Assembly: GCA_023212725.1 (NCBI GenBank)
Contig: JALBYF010000017.1
Span: forward strand, 62,001-126,000
Direction: 5' to 3'
DNA length: 64,000 nt
Source: Tranzscheliella williamsii
Taxonomy: Eukaryota > Basidiomycota > Ustilaginomycetes > Ustilaginales > Ustilaginaceae
Numbering within the stretch: position 1 is the first letter of the stretch; the number at the start of each line of letters is the position of its first letter. The translations under genes and the position numbers were made by a program. Positions 41,445 to 47,508 of this stretch are shown here, piece by piece. Below the pieces are notes generated by a model. That model made no database searches. It had not been told where the DNA came from and was given only the letters and a program-made list of their open reading frames with translations.

Positions 41445-42643
41445 TTACATGATGGTGCAGTCCTCGCCTCCTGCGCCGCCACCGAAGCCGGGGATGTTTT
41501 CGAGCTCGGCGGGCATGTCGCCGACAATCTCTGGCGGTGGCGCACCGCAGTCCTGCATCTGGTTCATCAGGTCCTGGATCTGGCCGGACAACTCCTTGTT
41601 CTTGCTGTCGTAGTTGGGGTTCTCGAACAGGGTTACGATCTGGCTGATGTACTGGCTCTGCTGTTCGTACCGTTTCCGATCTTCGGCCGAGATGTCTTTC
41701 GACTCGTCGCCGGTGAGGTAGGCCGGATACTTGTCTCGGAGCTCTTTGAGAGGCTCGTAGAGAATGTCACGCGACATGAGTTCGTCCATCATGCCTTCCA
41801 GCATCTTGGCAAACTCGGGATTGTCCAGATCGTCTCCGCCTTGGCCGCCGCCGAGGGCGGCGAGCAGCTTGGCCATTTCGTCGCCGTCTCCGCCGCCGAG
41901 CCCAGCGAATGGGTTGTCGGCAGCCGACGTCGTGGCGGTGGCCGAAGCGTCGCTCTCCTTGAGCTTGTTAAGTGTCGCCGCGATAGCATCATTGAAGTTA
42001 CCGGGTTTGCTCGTGTTGGCCGCAGCCGTGCCGCGCGGGGCTGAGGCAGCCGACTCGGGCACGTTGGCGGAAGTGCCTGCGCCTGCACCCGCCCCTGCAC
42101 CGGCGCCGGCCGCACCGCCTCCGAACCCAACCATCATGGCCTCGAACTGCTTCATCAGCTCTTCTTCGTTGAACTGCTGCTCCCCTTCAGCAGCAGCGCC
42201 AGCAGGAGCGGGTCCAGTCAAGCCCTCGGCACCTGGCTGTGAGCCAAGCTCCTTCATCAACGCTTGCATTCCTTGCGCCAGCTCTTTGGCAAAATCCTCC
42301 GAAAGCACATCATCCAGACCCTCACCAGCTTCCGCCCCTACCGCCGCGCTGTCTTTGTCCGCCGTCACCGCCGCTGTCGACGCGGAGGCAGGCTCGTCGG
42401 TGGACGACGTGGCTGGCGCCGTGGATGGCGCCGACCCGGAGCTCGATGGCTTGTTGAACTCCTCCAAGACGTCTGTAGAGGGCAAGGGGGCGAATGAAAC
42501 CTATTCATATTAGTATGTGCAGTATGTGCGAGCACGCAGAGAGCATGGGACTCACCATCGAGGTCGTCGAGATCCTCCACGTCGTCCGCCGCCGCGTCGC
42601 TCACTACTGGCGGTTTCTCCCGCTGATCTCCTGGTGCGGACAT
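41445..42643 (-). CDS. PEX19: Peroxisomal membrane-protein import receptor Pex19
   Basis: Two exons, 42643-42556 and 42472-41445, encode 371 residues. The phase-1 junction recreates DLDDLDDVLEEFNKP, the N-terminal Pex3-binding region. The acceptor CTCTACAG has a strong pyrimidine tract. The C-terminal domain reads EPLKELRDKYPAYL and QYISQIVTLFENPNYD. The protein ends in CTIM, a CaaX box for farnesylation, as in other Pex19 proteins. Pex19 is the cytosolic chaperone and shuttle for peroxisomal membrane proteins. The middle is Ala/Gly-rich linker. A TTG at 42485 that keeps the frame open is inside the intron and is not the start. Confidence 0.95.
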
Positions 42644-43143
42644 CCCTATCTAGATTGTTTCTACTTGACTGCGTAGGGGGCGTGGGCGAGGAGGAAGGTG
42701 AACAGGCTATTGCAATGTCGTGGCGAAGCAGATGTGCGGGGAAGGGCAGACGAAAATCAAAAGTCACGAGCGGTTTCCGGCTCGACTGCCCGGAAGCTTT
42801 GAAAGCGGCTAAGCGCCCGTCAATCCGAGTACAACCAATGGACAGGCCTTTTGAGCGCTCTTCGCGCAGATGCGTTGTTGGGCTCGGGCGAACAGGATCT
42901 GATCGGGGCCAAATTTCAGTACGTAATCGAGATGGATAGAACCACCCTTTATCTGGAGGGGATCTAACACGTCCGGTACTCCTCCCCCACGTCATGTGGA
43001 CGAGCTCAGGCAGGCTGTCATCATACATGGCTCGTGCCTTCCGCTGACTGTCCATAAGATCGTGCCTGTCTTCGAGGCTTGTTCAGCTCACCCATCATCA
43101 AGCTTCGATCTTGCATCGTTTTTAACCGCCAGATCTCGCAACC
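42644..43143. promoter_or_regulatory. Divergent intergenic region (PEX19 / Gfo-Idh-MocA gene)
   Basis: Exactly 500 bp separate the two divergent start codons. Open frames here are short and unsupported. I recognise no motif with confidence. Confidence 0.4.
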
Positions 43144-44321
43144 ATGTCAGCACCTTATGTCTGCAAGTGGGGTATGTACTCGTTCTTCACCGATGCGAAA
43201 GGCGATGGTATTGTCGCTTACCAACTCTGGTGTGCGGTGTTGTCCACGCAGGTATTCTCGCTACGGGTGGCATCGCCGAGAAGTTTGCCGGCGACCTTGT
43301 GCGCGATCCGGCGAGCCGGTCTGTCTCTGATGTCAAGCATGAGGTGGTAGCTGCTGCGTCGTCGTCTTCTGCGGGACGGGCGCAGGAGTTTCTGACCAAG
43401 GTGGGTGCGGCGAGCAGTGCCAAGGCGTACGGGAGCTATGCCGAGATGGTGGCGGATGCGGAGGTGCAGATTGTGTATGTGGCGACGCCGCACTCGCTGC
43501 ACTACGAGAATGTGCTGCTGTGTCTCGAGGCGGGGAAGCACGTGTGCTGCGAGAAGCCGTTTACCATCAACGAGGCGCAGGCGTCCCATCTGGCGCGCGT
43601 CGCCACCGCCAAGAATCTCTTCCTGATGGAGGCGGTCTGGACGCGCTTCTTCCCACTGGTCATCGAGCTGCAGCGCCTGATCCATGACGAGCGCGTGCTT
43701 GGAAAGATCAGCCGCGTCTACAGCGACTTGAGCGTCGCTTTCACGCCAGACCCACAGCACCGCCTCTTCAACCCCGAGCTCGGCGGCGGCGCGCTCCTCG
43801 ACCTCGGCATCTACGCGCTCACCTGGCAAATGCTCACCCTCTACCAGCACCCAGACAACCGCGCCACCGCCCCGCTCGTCCAGGGCAGCATCATCAAGAC
43901 ACCCCTGACCGGCGTCGACGAATCGACCAGCATGCTGCTCAACTTCCCCACCCTCGGCGCACAGGGTATCGCGACCACCAACATGGCCGTCCGCTCCTCC
44001 GCCCACTACGTCGTCCTCATCCAGGGCGACAAGGCCGACATCACCGTGCCCTTTCCGCCCTACCGCCCCGAGAAGTTCATAATCCACTACAAGGACGCAT
44101 CCGGCGCTTACACGGGCCAGTCGGACACCAAGACCTTCGAAATCCCCGGCCAAGGCATGTTCTGGGAGGCCGACGCCTGCGCACGTGCCCTCCGCGACGG
44201 CCGCCTCCAAGAACCACGCTGCTCCCTCGACGAGTCCCAGCTAACCATGCGCATCATGGACTCCGTCCGCTACTCGAACGACTTCAGGTACCCAGACCAC
44301 ATCGAGCACGTCCGCTCCTGA
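43144..44321 (+). CDS. Gfo/Idh/MocA-family NAD(P) oxidoreductase (dihydrodiol/xylose dehydrogenase-like)
   Basis: Exons 43144-43171 and 43252-44321 encode 365 residues. The phase-1 splice restores the Rossmann start CKWGILATGGIAEKF, which neither exon shows alone. Further landmarks are YVATPHSLHYENVLLCLEAGKHV, the catalytic-lysine motif EKPF, and GGGALLDLGIYALTW. The family includes trans-1,2-dihydrobenzene-1,2-diol dehydrogenase and NADP-dependent xylose dehydrogenases, which oxidise sugars or diols. The exact substrate is not visible. No targeting signal is seen. The C-terminus (HVRS) is not a peroxisomal signal. Confidence 0.92.
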
Positions 44322-44480: not shown

Positions 44481-46664
44481 CTAAGAGGAACCAAAGAAGC
44501 GCTTGACCTTGTCGGAGAAGCTGATCTGGACGCTTTTGCCGGCGGCGGCCGAGTTGATGGTGCGCAGAAGGCGGTCGTAGTAGGCGGGCTGGGACTTGGG
44601 CTTGAGGATGGACTCGGGCAGGGGGTTCTGGCTGTGCACCTTGTTGTGCAGCAGGTCCTCGAGCGCTTGTAGGCCCTTGCGTGCGTACTCGAGCTCGCGG
44701 GTGGACAGCTGGCGCATCCCCGGCAGCGGGTCCGGCAGCGGGTCGCCCGGCGTCTTGGCATGCACCTGCTCCGGATGCACAGCCGACTGCGACTGGAGGG
44801 GTAGCAACGCGGACTGCGCCGCCGCCTGGATACTGGCACCAAAGTTCACGTCCGGACGCAGCGGGTCGATCGGCCATGCCTGCGCGAGAGCAATGTATTC
44901 CTTGTAGAGCGACTGGATCGATTCGCGACTCGCCTGCTCGCTAGCCTCAACTTGGCTCGAGCGGCCGACTTGCTGACCGGCGGCTGAAGTTGCGTACCCG
45001 CGAACCTGCTGTTGCGGCGCCGATTTCGCCACAGAGGGGCTAGCAGCCGAGGCGCTCCGACTCACTTCGTCGCGGACCACGAGGAGGCAGCTCTCGATAA
45101 CATCGACTGCCTTGTCAACCTGTTCCCTGGTAACCGTCAGGCTGGGTAATAACCTGATGGTGTCGTTTCCAGCAGTAAGGATAAGCACGCCGCGCTGCCT
45201 GGCCAGGGCAACGACTTTGCCGGCATGGGACGGGTCTTTAGTGGAGACACCGGCAATGAGTCCCTTTCCACGAGGGTTAGGCTTACCCGATCCGGGCTCA
45301 TCAACTAGGAGGTCAGGGAACATGGTGACAAGTTGCTCCAAGCGACGGAAGAGGACTTGGCTAGACTCCTTCATACTGGTACCGAGATCATGCGAGCTGA
45401 GCCGGCCCAAGACGTGGTGGGCGACGCGAGAGGTTAAAGGACCACCGCCAAAAGTGGTACCGTGGTCACCGACAGCGATAAGCTCGGCTACCGCATCTCG
45501 CATGAGCACAGCACCAATCGGAAATCCATTGGCTAGGGGCTTTGCCATAGTCACCATGTCGGGATGCGCATCGACAGGATACTCGCTGTGACACCACAAA
45601 GTGCCAGCGCGGAAGAGGCCACACTGGATCTCATCATATATCAACATGGCGCCTACTTGGTCGCACCGCTTGCGAACTGCCTGAAGCCAGTCTACACTGG
45701 CAGGGAAGATACCGCCTTCGCCTTGGATAGGCTCCAGTATGACGCCAGCAGTTGTCTCGTCGATCAGGGAGTCAAGACCGTCGAAGGAGTTGTAGTTGCC
45801 GACCTTCACATTTCCGATGAGCGGCGCAAAGGGAGCCTGATACTTGGGATTGGGTGTCATGGAGAGCGCACCCATTGTACGGCCGTGAAAGGCGTTGTTG
45901 AAACTCACCAAGCCGGATTTCTGGTCGCCATACTTGGCTGATTGAGCCTTGCCAGCCTTCCTAGCGAACTTGAGCGCCGCTTCGTTGGCCTCGGTCCCCG
46001 AATTGGCGAGGAATACCTTGAGGCCGTAATCAGAGGGTGGGGCGTCGGGGCCGGCCTTGGCCAATTTGCTGGTTGCCTTCTCAAAGCCCATACCGCCATG
46101 TTGGTGAGTGAGCTTGACCATGCGATCAGCAAGCTCGCCAGACCATTCGTTGTGGTAGAGGTTACTGGCGTGGATGAGTTTGGCACTCTGATCGGCAGCG
46201 ATCTGCGCGATCTCTTTGTCGGCATGGCCAAGGCTGTTGACGGCGATACCAGATGAAAAGTCGAGGTATTTGCGTTCTTTGTGGCCCTGGTTGGTGCTGG
46301 GATCAGCGGCGGCATAGACATCAAGGCCCGAGCCACGGGTGAAGATGAGCTGAGGGCGCGAGTAGGTTGCCAGCACCGAGTGTGAGAAGCGGTCTAGGGT
46401 GTCGCCAATCTTGGAGCCTTTGGATGCATCGCCCTCTGGATGCGATAGAGAGATGTAGTCGGCACAAGGTTTCCTGCTGGTAGCATGCGTGGCGAGACTT
46501 CGTACTGCGCACGCAGCCGCTGTGCTTGTGATGGGCGCCGGTGCCGTCAGGGACGATGCTGTAGAGTGGGCTGTCACATTTCGGGCCACTCGGCCAGCGC
46601 GGTGGGCTAGACCAAGGGCTGAGGCAGCCGTGCGGCTGGATAGAGCCATGCGTGCTGCTGACAT
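44481..46664 (-). CDS. ARG8: Acetylornithine aminotransferase fused to a Cbp6-like domain
   Basis: One uninterrupted 727-residue frame. Residues 1 to about 60 are a Ser/Ala/Arg mitochondrial presequence. Residues 95-540 are a class-III PLP aminotransferase of the acetylornithine type, with ANSGTEANEAALKFAR, LEPIQGEGG, YDEIQCGLFRAG and the PLP lysine Lys375 in MAKPLANGFP. This enzyme makes N-acetylornithine in mitochondrial arginine synthesis. At 554-565 a second presequence-like stretch occurs (QQVRGYATSAAG). Residues 584-727 then resemble Cbp6/UQCC2, the cytochrome-b translation and assembly factor: SLYKEYIALAQAWPIDP, ALEDLLHNK, LKPKSQPAYYDRLLRTI and the ending VKRFFGSS. No in-frame Met occurs between the two parts before residue 640. 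Neighbours are Pex19 and the oxidoreductase, on which it converges. Confidence 0.88.
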   Translation of the reverse strand: MSAARMALSSRTAASALGLAHRAGRVARNVTAHSTASSLTAPAPITSTAAACAVRSLATHATSRKPCADYISLSHPEGDASKGSKIGDTLDRFSHSVLATYSRPQLIFTRGSGLDVYAAADPSTNQGHKERKYLDFSSGIAVNSLGHADKEIAQIAADQSAKLIHASNLYHNEWSGELADRMVKLTHQHGGMGFEKATSKLAKAGPDAPPSDYGLKVFLANSGTEANEAALKFARKAGKAQSAKYGDQKSGLVSFNNAFHGRTMGALSMTPNPKYQAPFAPLIGNVKVGNYNSFDGLDSLIDETTAGVILEPIQGEGGIFPASVDWLQAVRKRCDQVGAMLIYDEIQCGLFRAGTLWCHSEYPVDAHPDMVTMAKPLANGFPIGAVLMRDAVAELIAVGDHGTTFGGGPLTSRVAHHVLGRLSSHDLGTSMKESSQVLFRRLEQLVTMFPDLLVDEPGSGKPNPRGKGLIAGVSTKDPSHAGKVVALARQRGVLILTAGNDTIRLLPSLTVTREQVDKAVDVIESCLLVVRDEVSRSASAASPSVAKSAPQQQVRGYATSAAGQQVGRSSQVEASEQASRESIQSLYKEYIALAQAWPIDPLRPDVNFGASIQAAAQSALLPLQSQSAVHPEQVHAKTPGDPLPDPLPGMRQLSTRELEYARKGLQALEDLLHNKVHSQNPLPESILKPKSQPAYYDRLLRTINSAAAGKSVQISFSDKVKRFFGSS

Positions 46665-47508
46665 GGTATGCGATGCGATCTGCTACGCCCCAGGATCGAC
46701 GGAGAGAGAAGGAAGGAGAAAGCAACCAATTCGACATTTAAGATGTCATTATTCCTGTCAGAGCTCTTATCGAGGTGGATTTCGCATAACGAACAGCAAC
46801 TTCCCCTGCAAGCTGCTAGCATTTACAGGTTGTGACTCGTGGCTCCTTCATTACAATTAATACTGCGGGATCCTGCAGCAAGCAAGCAGGTAAAGGCGAA
46901 GGTGGAGAGCCACGGTACTTCAATGAATTCAGCTTGTATCACACACCTACTCGACTTACCGCTTATGGAAGAAAGTAAAGGGACTTTTTGGCCCGCTCTC
47001 ATTGACTGTGTCTTGACTCATACGACGACGTAAAATCCAAAGACCCTTGACCCAGCCTTCCCATTCTCTTCCTAACAACATTAACGCCGCTGACGGCTTG
47101 CGACCTGTCGTTTTCATTGTGACTCAACTTCACATTCACATGTCTGAGCCCCATAATTTGGCAGAGGCTGCACGGCAAAAGACAATATCAAATTTGCACT
47201 ACGCAACATGACAAACAAGGCCGAGGGACGGTGAGGTAGCTGGCAACAAGGATAGTGATGGTAAGATAAGCCGAGTGGAGATGTCTTTGAACAAATCAGA
47301 GAGATGAGGGCCGATGTGGCGACAGAAGTAGCCAGGTCGATACCGATGAGGATGGCACGACGTGCTCGGTACGTTGAGGTATGGTACAAGGCAAGAAAGA
47401 CGAGCCGCATGTGGCAAAGAAGAGGCAAAAGCGCTCAAAGTGGAGTAGCGCAAGGTCACAACCAAGTCGAGAGTCGAGAGCATGTCATGTCATTCTAGCA
47501 AATCTAGC
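46665..47508. other. Intergenic region upstream of ARG8
   Basis: About 840 bp without a supported gene. It carries the ARG8 promoter near 46665 and the 3' end of the polyglutamine gene near 47508. Confidence 0.4.

Follow-up and report, generated by a model that had tools for sequence, protein, structure and literature searches.

A 64,000-nucleotide stretch of contig JALBYF010000017.1 from Tranzscheliella williamsii (hereafter the window) contains a gene in which an aminotransferase of the arginine pathway, Arg8, is joined in frame to the cytochrome b assembly factor Cbp6. Two complete mitochondrial-type proteins share this single reading frame, and a conserved presequence-like segment with a processing motif lies between them in all nine linkers compared; the segment is missing from one further fusion, P0007. 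Judged from these sequence features, the gene probably encodes a mitochondrial tandem precursor. A single import step would be followed by cuts at two presequences, made first by the mitochondrial processing peptidase (MPP) and then by Icp55, to give Arg8 and Cbp6. The features discussed are the following.

44481..46664, minus strand: ARG8-CBP6 fusion gene, a single uninterrupted open reading frame (ORF) of 727 codons plus stop
46494..46664, minus strand: N-terminal presequence, residues 1-57, ending R55-S-L / A58-T-H, a predicted MPP/Icp55 site from a motif scan
45084..46280, minus strand: class-III aminotransferase domain (Arg8/ArgD type), residues 129-527, Pfam PF00202, complete to the profile end
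44994..45065, minus strand: internal presequence-like linker, residues 534-557, from composition
44988..45002, minus strand: R-G-Y-A-T, residues 555-559, predicted internal MPP (-2R) then Icp55 site
44484..44993, minus strand: predicted mature Cbp6, residues 558-727, 170 aa, first residue inferred
44562..44906, minus strand: UQCC2/CBP6 domain PF20180, residues 587-701, Pfam match
47014-47020 and 47120-47126, no strand assigned: two TGACTCA sites in the 844-base gap upstream of the fusion gene, suggestive only

The fused reading frame and its relatives

The minus-strand frame from 46664 to 44481 runs from ATG to TAG without internal stops in the raw DNA, independently of any gene model. Pfam searches matched PF00202 (Aminotran_3) at residues 129-527 (E 6.4e-91; 305.5 bits against a cut-off of 30.5; profile positions 25-403 of 403) and PF20180 (UQCC2_CBP6) at residues 587-701 (E 1.9e-15; 57.6 bits against a cut-off of 27.9; profile positions 1-89 of 90), separated by a linker of ~50 residues. 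An earlier note on this DNA had proposed a complete class-III aminotransferase followed by a Cbp6-like domain in one frame and a profile search of the tail; both families are matched, both complete, and the tail proves to belong to PF20180.

For the enzyme half, the NCBIfam argD model TIGR00707 ranked first among 70 matches with 390.9 bits, and the ornithine aminotransferase model TIGR01885 scored 217.4 bits. Because the TIGR00707 score falls under the curated cut-off of 410.05, in a model that names bacterial and archaeal proteins and does not define fungal Arg8, we term the enzyme Arg8-type and claim no formal membership. A sequence search of the Protein Data Bank (PDB) returned acetylornithine aminotransferase 2ord as the top match, with K375 in MAKPLANGFPIGA aligned to the lysine of TAKGLGGGVPIGA, which we take to be the pyridoxal phosphate lysine of 2ord. 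The protein therefore resembles Arg8/ArgD acetylornithine aminotransferases in its top-ranked model and top PDB match, but differs from them in its additional C-terminal linker and CBP6 domain and in its score under the cut-off. By sequence, the tail had no PDB relatives (the rows returned had E values from 0.37 to 3.6). A structure model of the tail was middling (predicted local distance difference test (pLDDT) 70.5, predicted template modelling score (pTM) 0.55, 11 sequences) and gave no Foldseek match at E <= 0.001; the full-length model was poor (mean pLDDT 40.7 from 10 sequences) and was left unused.

We then considered other copies in the genome containing the window, which comprises 18,183,561 bases in 135 contigs. 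PF20180 had one match, within the fusion gene, and the tail as a protein query retrieved, besides itself, a single row at E 0.51 (13.9 bits). A hidden standalone CBP6 was rejected on these two results, although such searches could miss a copy divided among short exons and the assembly may not be complete. The earlier note would have given up the fusion for an intact separate CBP6 together with a tail lacking a profile match; as far as tested, the genome yields no such gene by either search and the tail matches its family. PF00202 had at least seven matches in at least five genes, the fusion gene included. Of the others, one scores 681 bits as ornithine aminotransferase (TIGR01885) and one 651.2 bits as GABA transaminase (TIGR00699); the best names for the rest are aspartate/GABA-family aminotransferase and, for an ORF of 995 aa, BioA-type aminotransferase. 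A second ARG8 was rejected on these names. CBP3 is a separate gene on contig C66 (PF03981, E 9.6e-28; 407-aa ORF, E 7.2e-30). With no other CBP6 or Arg8-type gene found, both proteins of this genome seem to come from the fusion gene.

Relatives were surveyed by comparing the tail (residues 540-727) with proteins of fusion-like length. Nine of 1346 candidates matched at E <= 0.01 (6.5e-60 to 1.9e-26), all nine carrying both Pfam domains at 70-75% identity to the window protein, which makes the fusion common to ten sequences. The named sources are Ustilago bromivora, Moesziomyces antarcticus, Sporisorium scitamineum and S. graminicola, all smut fungi. The survey of relatives suggested in the earlier note thus recovers the same fusion in nine other records under four smut species names. 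Databases already annotate both Pfam domains on these nine proteins. Standalone tails were absent among 183 candidates in a one-sequence search, and a profile built from ten tails retrieved one of 2162, P0011, an ambiguous CBP6-only record of 158 aa on an 878-base contig that may be a fragment.

Two neighbouring genes might also have been joined by faulty gene prediction or assembly. Record P0002 proves that chimeras occur: its N-terminus is unrelated (weakly similar to HAAS, with a score under the family cut-off) and the Arg8 start is absent, so we judge it chimeric or shortened. P0007 likewise reveals gene-model trouble at the linker. Such an artefact is nevertheless highly improbable for the gene described here, and we rejected it because the raw DNA itself shows the frame open and the fusion recurs in nine other sequences.

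The linker as a probable internal presequence

Codon 534 is GTG (Val), and the segment from there to R555 contains three basic and no acidic residues. Residues 551-563 read QQQVRGYATSAAG, in which R555-G-Y-A-T fits the pattern R-x-[FYL]-[AST]-[ST]. This pattern is present in the linker of every linker-bearing fusion (9/9; P0007, the tenth, has no linker). Q553 and R555 are invariant across the nine, and the remaining linker varies in sequence and length. The N-terminal presequence carries R-x-L-A-T in nine of ten fusions, namely the window's and P0003-P0010; the region is absent from P0002. According to PMC8847149, Icp55 trims Y, L or F off the -2R products that MPP leaves; the plant Icp55 motif is given there as RX(F/Y/I/L)/(S/A)(S/T), cut before S/A and called similar to that of yeast and mammals. 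Across residues 81-520 of 11 proteins (P0001-P0011, P0001 being the window protein), the motif occurred once in the 4478 residues scanned, the sole match being the P0002 linker, displaced by its short N-terminus.

Composition sets the same segment apart. Before the site, the nine linkers contain one D/E in 191 residues, 26 K/R (13.6%) and 43.5% S/A; D/E rises to 9.8% after the site and is 10.1% in the Arg8 body (residues 101-500). The N-terminal presequences of eight fusions, a set that left out P0007 (linker missing) and P0002 (N-terminus missing), have no D/E in 260 residues, 15.4% K/R and 40% S/A.

For comparison, we inspected mitochondrial proteins of the same genome. Motif-like sequences lie near the N-termini of Hsp60 (QQQARSFSTS), malate dehydrogenase (MDH; PRFFSTSA), Cbp3 (VRPYTSSS), GABA transaminase (HRSLATV) and ATP synthase beta (AARNLATEA, with its true first exon uncertain); the citrate synthase N-terminus was not found in this comparison. 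Arg5,6 is here one frame, kinase then reductase (C68:46500-53000), and its linker holds two motif matches, RAFST (in TRAFSTMAR) and RGYAS (in RRGYASAV), 22 residues apart; the 37 residues up to the second are free of acidic ones. This pattern suggests that Arg5,6 of the same genome may be cut internally twice. According to PMC8847149, PMC8835746 and PMC10450427, the presequence of yeast Arg5,6 is removed by MPP, which the internal cut also needs. The earlier note had suspected a second matrix-peptidase-like site at about residues 554-565 and had cited Arg5,6 as its precedent. The linker motif in 9/9 fusions, the composition and the Arg5,6 linker of the same genome back the site, and the precedent is apt.

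Several observations weigh against an internal processing site or against the tandem precursor as a whole. The window protein matches the motif again at residue 651, within the CBP6 domain, so the motif alone is insufficient. It is also short, arising in 0.8 to 4.8% of shuffles of single linkers, and the nine linkers are related rather than independent. Ornithine transcarbamylase (OTC) of the same genome offers only a loose fit, KRFSSS. P0007, from S. scitamineum, is recorded without the entire linker and the residues immediately before it, which may reflect an error in the gene model, such as a falsely predicted intron, or else a splice form that cannot be cleaved. The first linker position is Met in two of the nine linker-bearing fusions, P0006 and P0008. 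Finally, the UQCC2/Cbp6 orthologs aligned in PMC3873243 are reported to have no recognisable targeting signal, which speaks against the linker as an inherited CBP6 presequence; the predicted cut is independent of the linker's origin.

The Met residues in P0006 and P0008 would permit translation to start at the linker and bear on a different explanation, in which ARG8 harbours the start of a second transcript, Cbp6 is translated from the linker onwards and the open fusion frame is incidental. Val (three), Leu (three) and Ala (one) at this position in the other seven linkers, with GTG at codon 534 here, could mark the place of an eroded start codon, and P0011 is recorded as CBP6 only. In the window protein, however, Met occurs at positions 1, 6, 182, 192, 264, 269, 340, 370, 373, 388, 431, 448 and 650, which leaves residues 448 to 650 without an in-frame ATG, and Met650 is already inside the CBP6 domain. 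The earlier statement that no in-frame Met would let the second domain start alone consequently holds for this protein but not for P0006 and P0008. Furthermore, none of 65 intron candidates had a donor between residues 480 and 720 in a crude pattern scan (GTRNG..CTRAY..YAG, 40-400 nucleotides, gene plus 100 nucleotides either side), and the 878-base contig of P0011 may hold a fragment. We regard separate starts as quite improbable.

An uncut two-domain protein would instead tether Cbp6 to Arg8 and physically link arginine synthesis with cytochrome b assembly. One continuous frame would suit such a tether, as would P0007 with its missing cleavage linker. A plain tether is not expected to contain a presequence-like linker whose processing motif recurs in 9/9 cases, and would leave that linker unexplained. 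The motif is shared by Arg5,6 of the same genome, and the Schizosaccharomyces pombe tandem Rsm22-Cox11 is cut after import according to PMC12375894 and PMC4381221. An uncut tether is improbable on this evidence.

The proposed tandem precursor and known systems

The tandem precursor is our best reading of the sequence, from which we infer import, both cuts, the independence of the two products and the origin of the linker. One mRNA would yield a chain of 727 residues, whose N-terminal presequence would direct it into mitochondria. MPP and then Icp55 would cut after residue 57, and a second cut would follow at the internal presequence, R555-G-Y / A558, releasing Arg8 (about residues 58-557, ~500 residues) and Cbp6 of ~170 residues. 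The released Cbp6 would pair with the separately encoded Cbp3 and so assist the synthesis and assembly of cytochrome b. The linker may have begun as the presequence of a once-separate CBP6 and been retained when the gene was joined behind ARG8. Given Met in P0006 and P0008 against Val, Leu or Ala elsewhere and GTG in the window, its first position is possibly the eroded start codon of that gene; a plain hydrophobic position would look alike.

On this evidence the fusion would belong with mitochondrial tandem precursors such as Arg5,6 and Rsm22-Cox11, here with unrelated partners. Yeast Arg5,6 likewise has two mitochondrial proteins per precursor, an internal presequence-type site and an arginine-pathway partner, but its acetylglutamate kinase and reductase are two steps of one pathway, whereas the fusion combines an enzyme with an unrelated cytochrome b assembly factor. 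Rsm22-Cox11 also unites two distinct mitochondrial proteins, one of which is an assembly factor for a respiratory complex; unlike the fusion, it pairs a mitoribosome factor with a copper delivery factor and has no metabolic enzyme. Compared with yeast Cbp6 and human UQCC2, the fusion has the whole PF20180 domain and CBP3/UQCC1 is present in the same genome, but Cbp6 and UQCC2 are described as separate genes, with orthologs that lack a recognisable targeting signal in the alignment cited above.

No title or abstract on an ARG8-CBP6 fusion was found in the open-licence literature among the matches listed. EX895_002715 and UMAG_05671 (Ustilago maydis) are tabulated as acetylornithine aminotransferase, with no second domain mentioned in the available part of that source (PMC7409079). 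EX895_002715 is P0009, which also carries the CBP6 domain and is therefore the likely source of Cbp6 too. That a biosynthetic enzyme and an unrelated assembly factor are kept joined in several smut fungi raises the question of why such pairings persist. To our knowledge, few mitochondrial tandem precursors cut by MPP have been described, and nine natural linkers beside Arg5,6 allow rules for internal MPP sites to be read.

Upstream sites and neighbouring genes

The two TGACTCA sites in the upstream gap are possible Gcn4/Cpc1-type sites. The degenerate form TGASTCA occurs six times in the window, below the nine expected from shuffles, and two of these lie within the 844-base gap; a Poisson estimate for at least two in the gap is 0.003, using the window's own density and with the gap chosen after looking. 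Within 900 bases upstream, OTC has one TGASTCA and Arg5,6, Hsp60, Atp2, MDH and Cbp3 have none, the gene starts of Arg5,6 and Atp2 being uncertain in this comparison. Arg5,6 has only one shorter TGACTC upstream, and its lack of TGASTCA speaks against shared arginine-gene control. The pair weakly hints that CBP6 may have come under amino-acid control. A fuller version of this idea, which we consider rather unlikely, is that CBP6, described as limiting the rate of cytochrome b synthesis, was placed under Gcn4/Cpc1-type control in smut fungi by joining behind ARG8, so that arginine demand would set how much of a respiratory-complex assembly factor one precursor supplies.

The fusion gene is neighboured by Pex19 (41445-42485, minus strand) and by a GFO/IDH/MocA oxidoreductase (42996-44321, plus strand) that converges on it across a gap of ~160 bases. 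Elsewhere in the genome, the 995-aa ORF at C50:30026-34333 ends in the BioA-type aminotransferase and is perhaps a biotin gene fusion like BIO3-BIO1.
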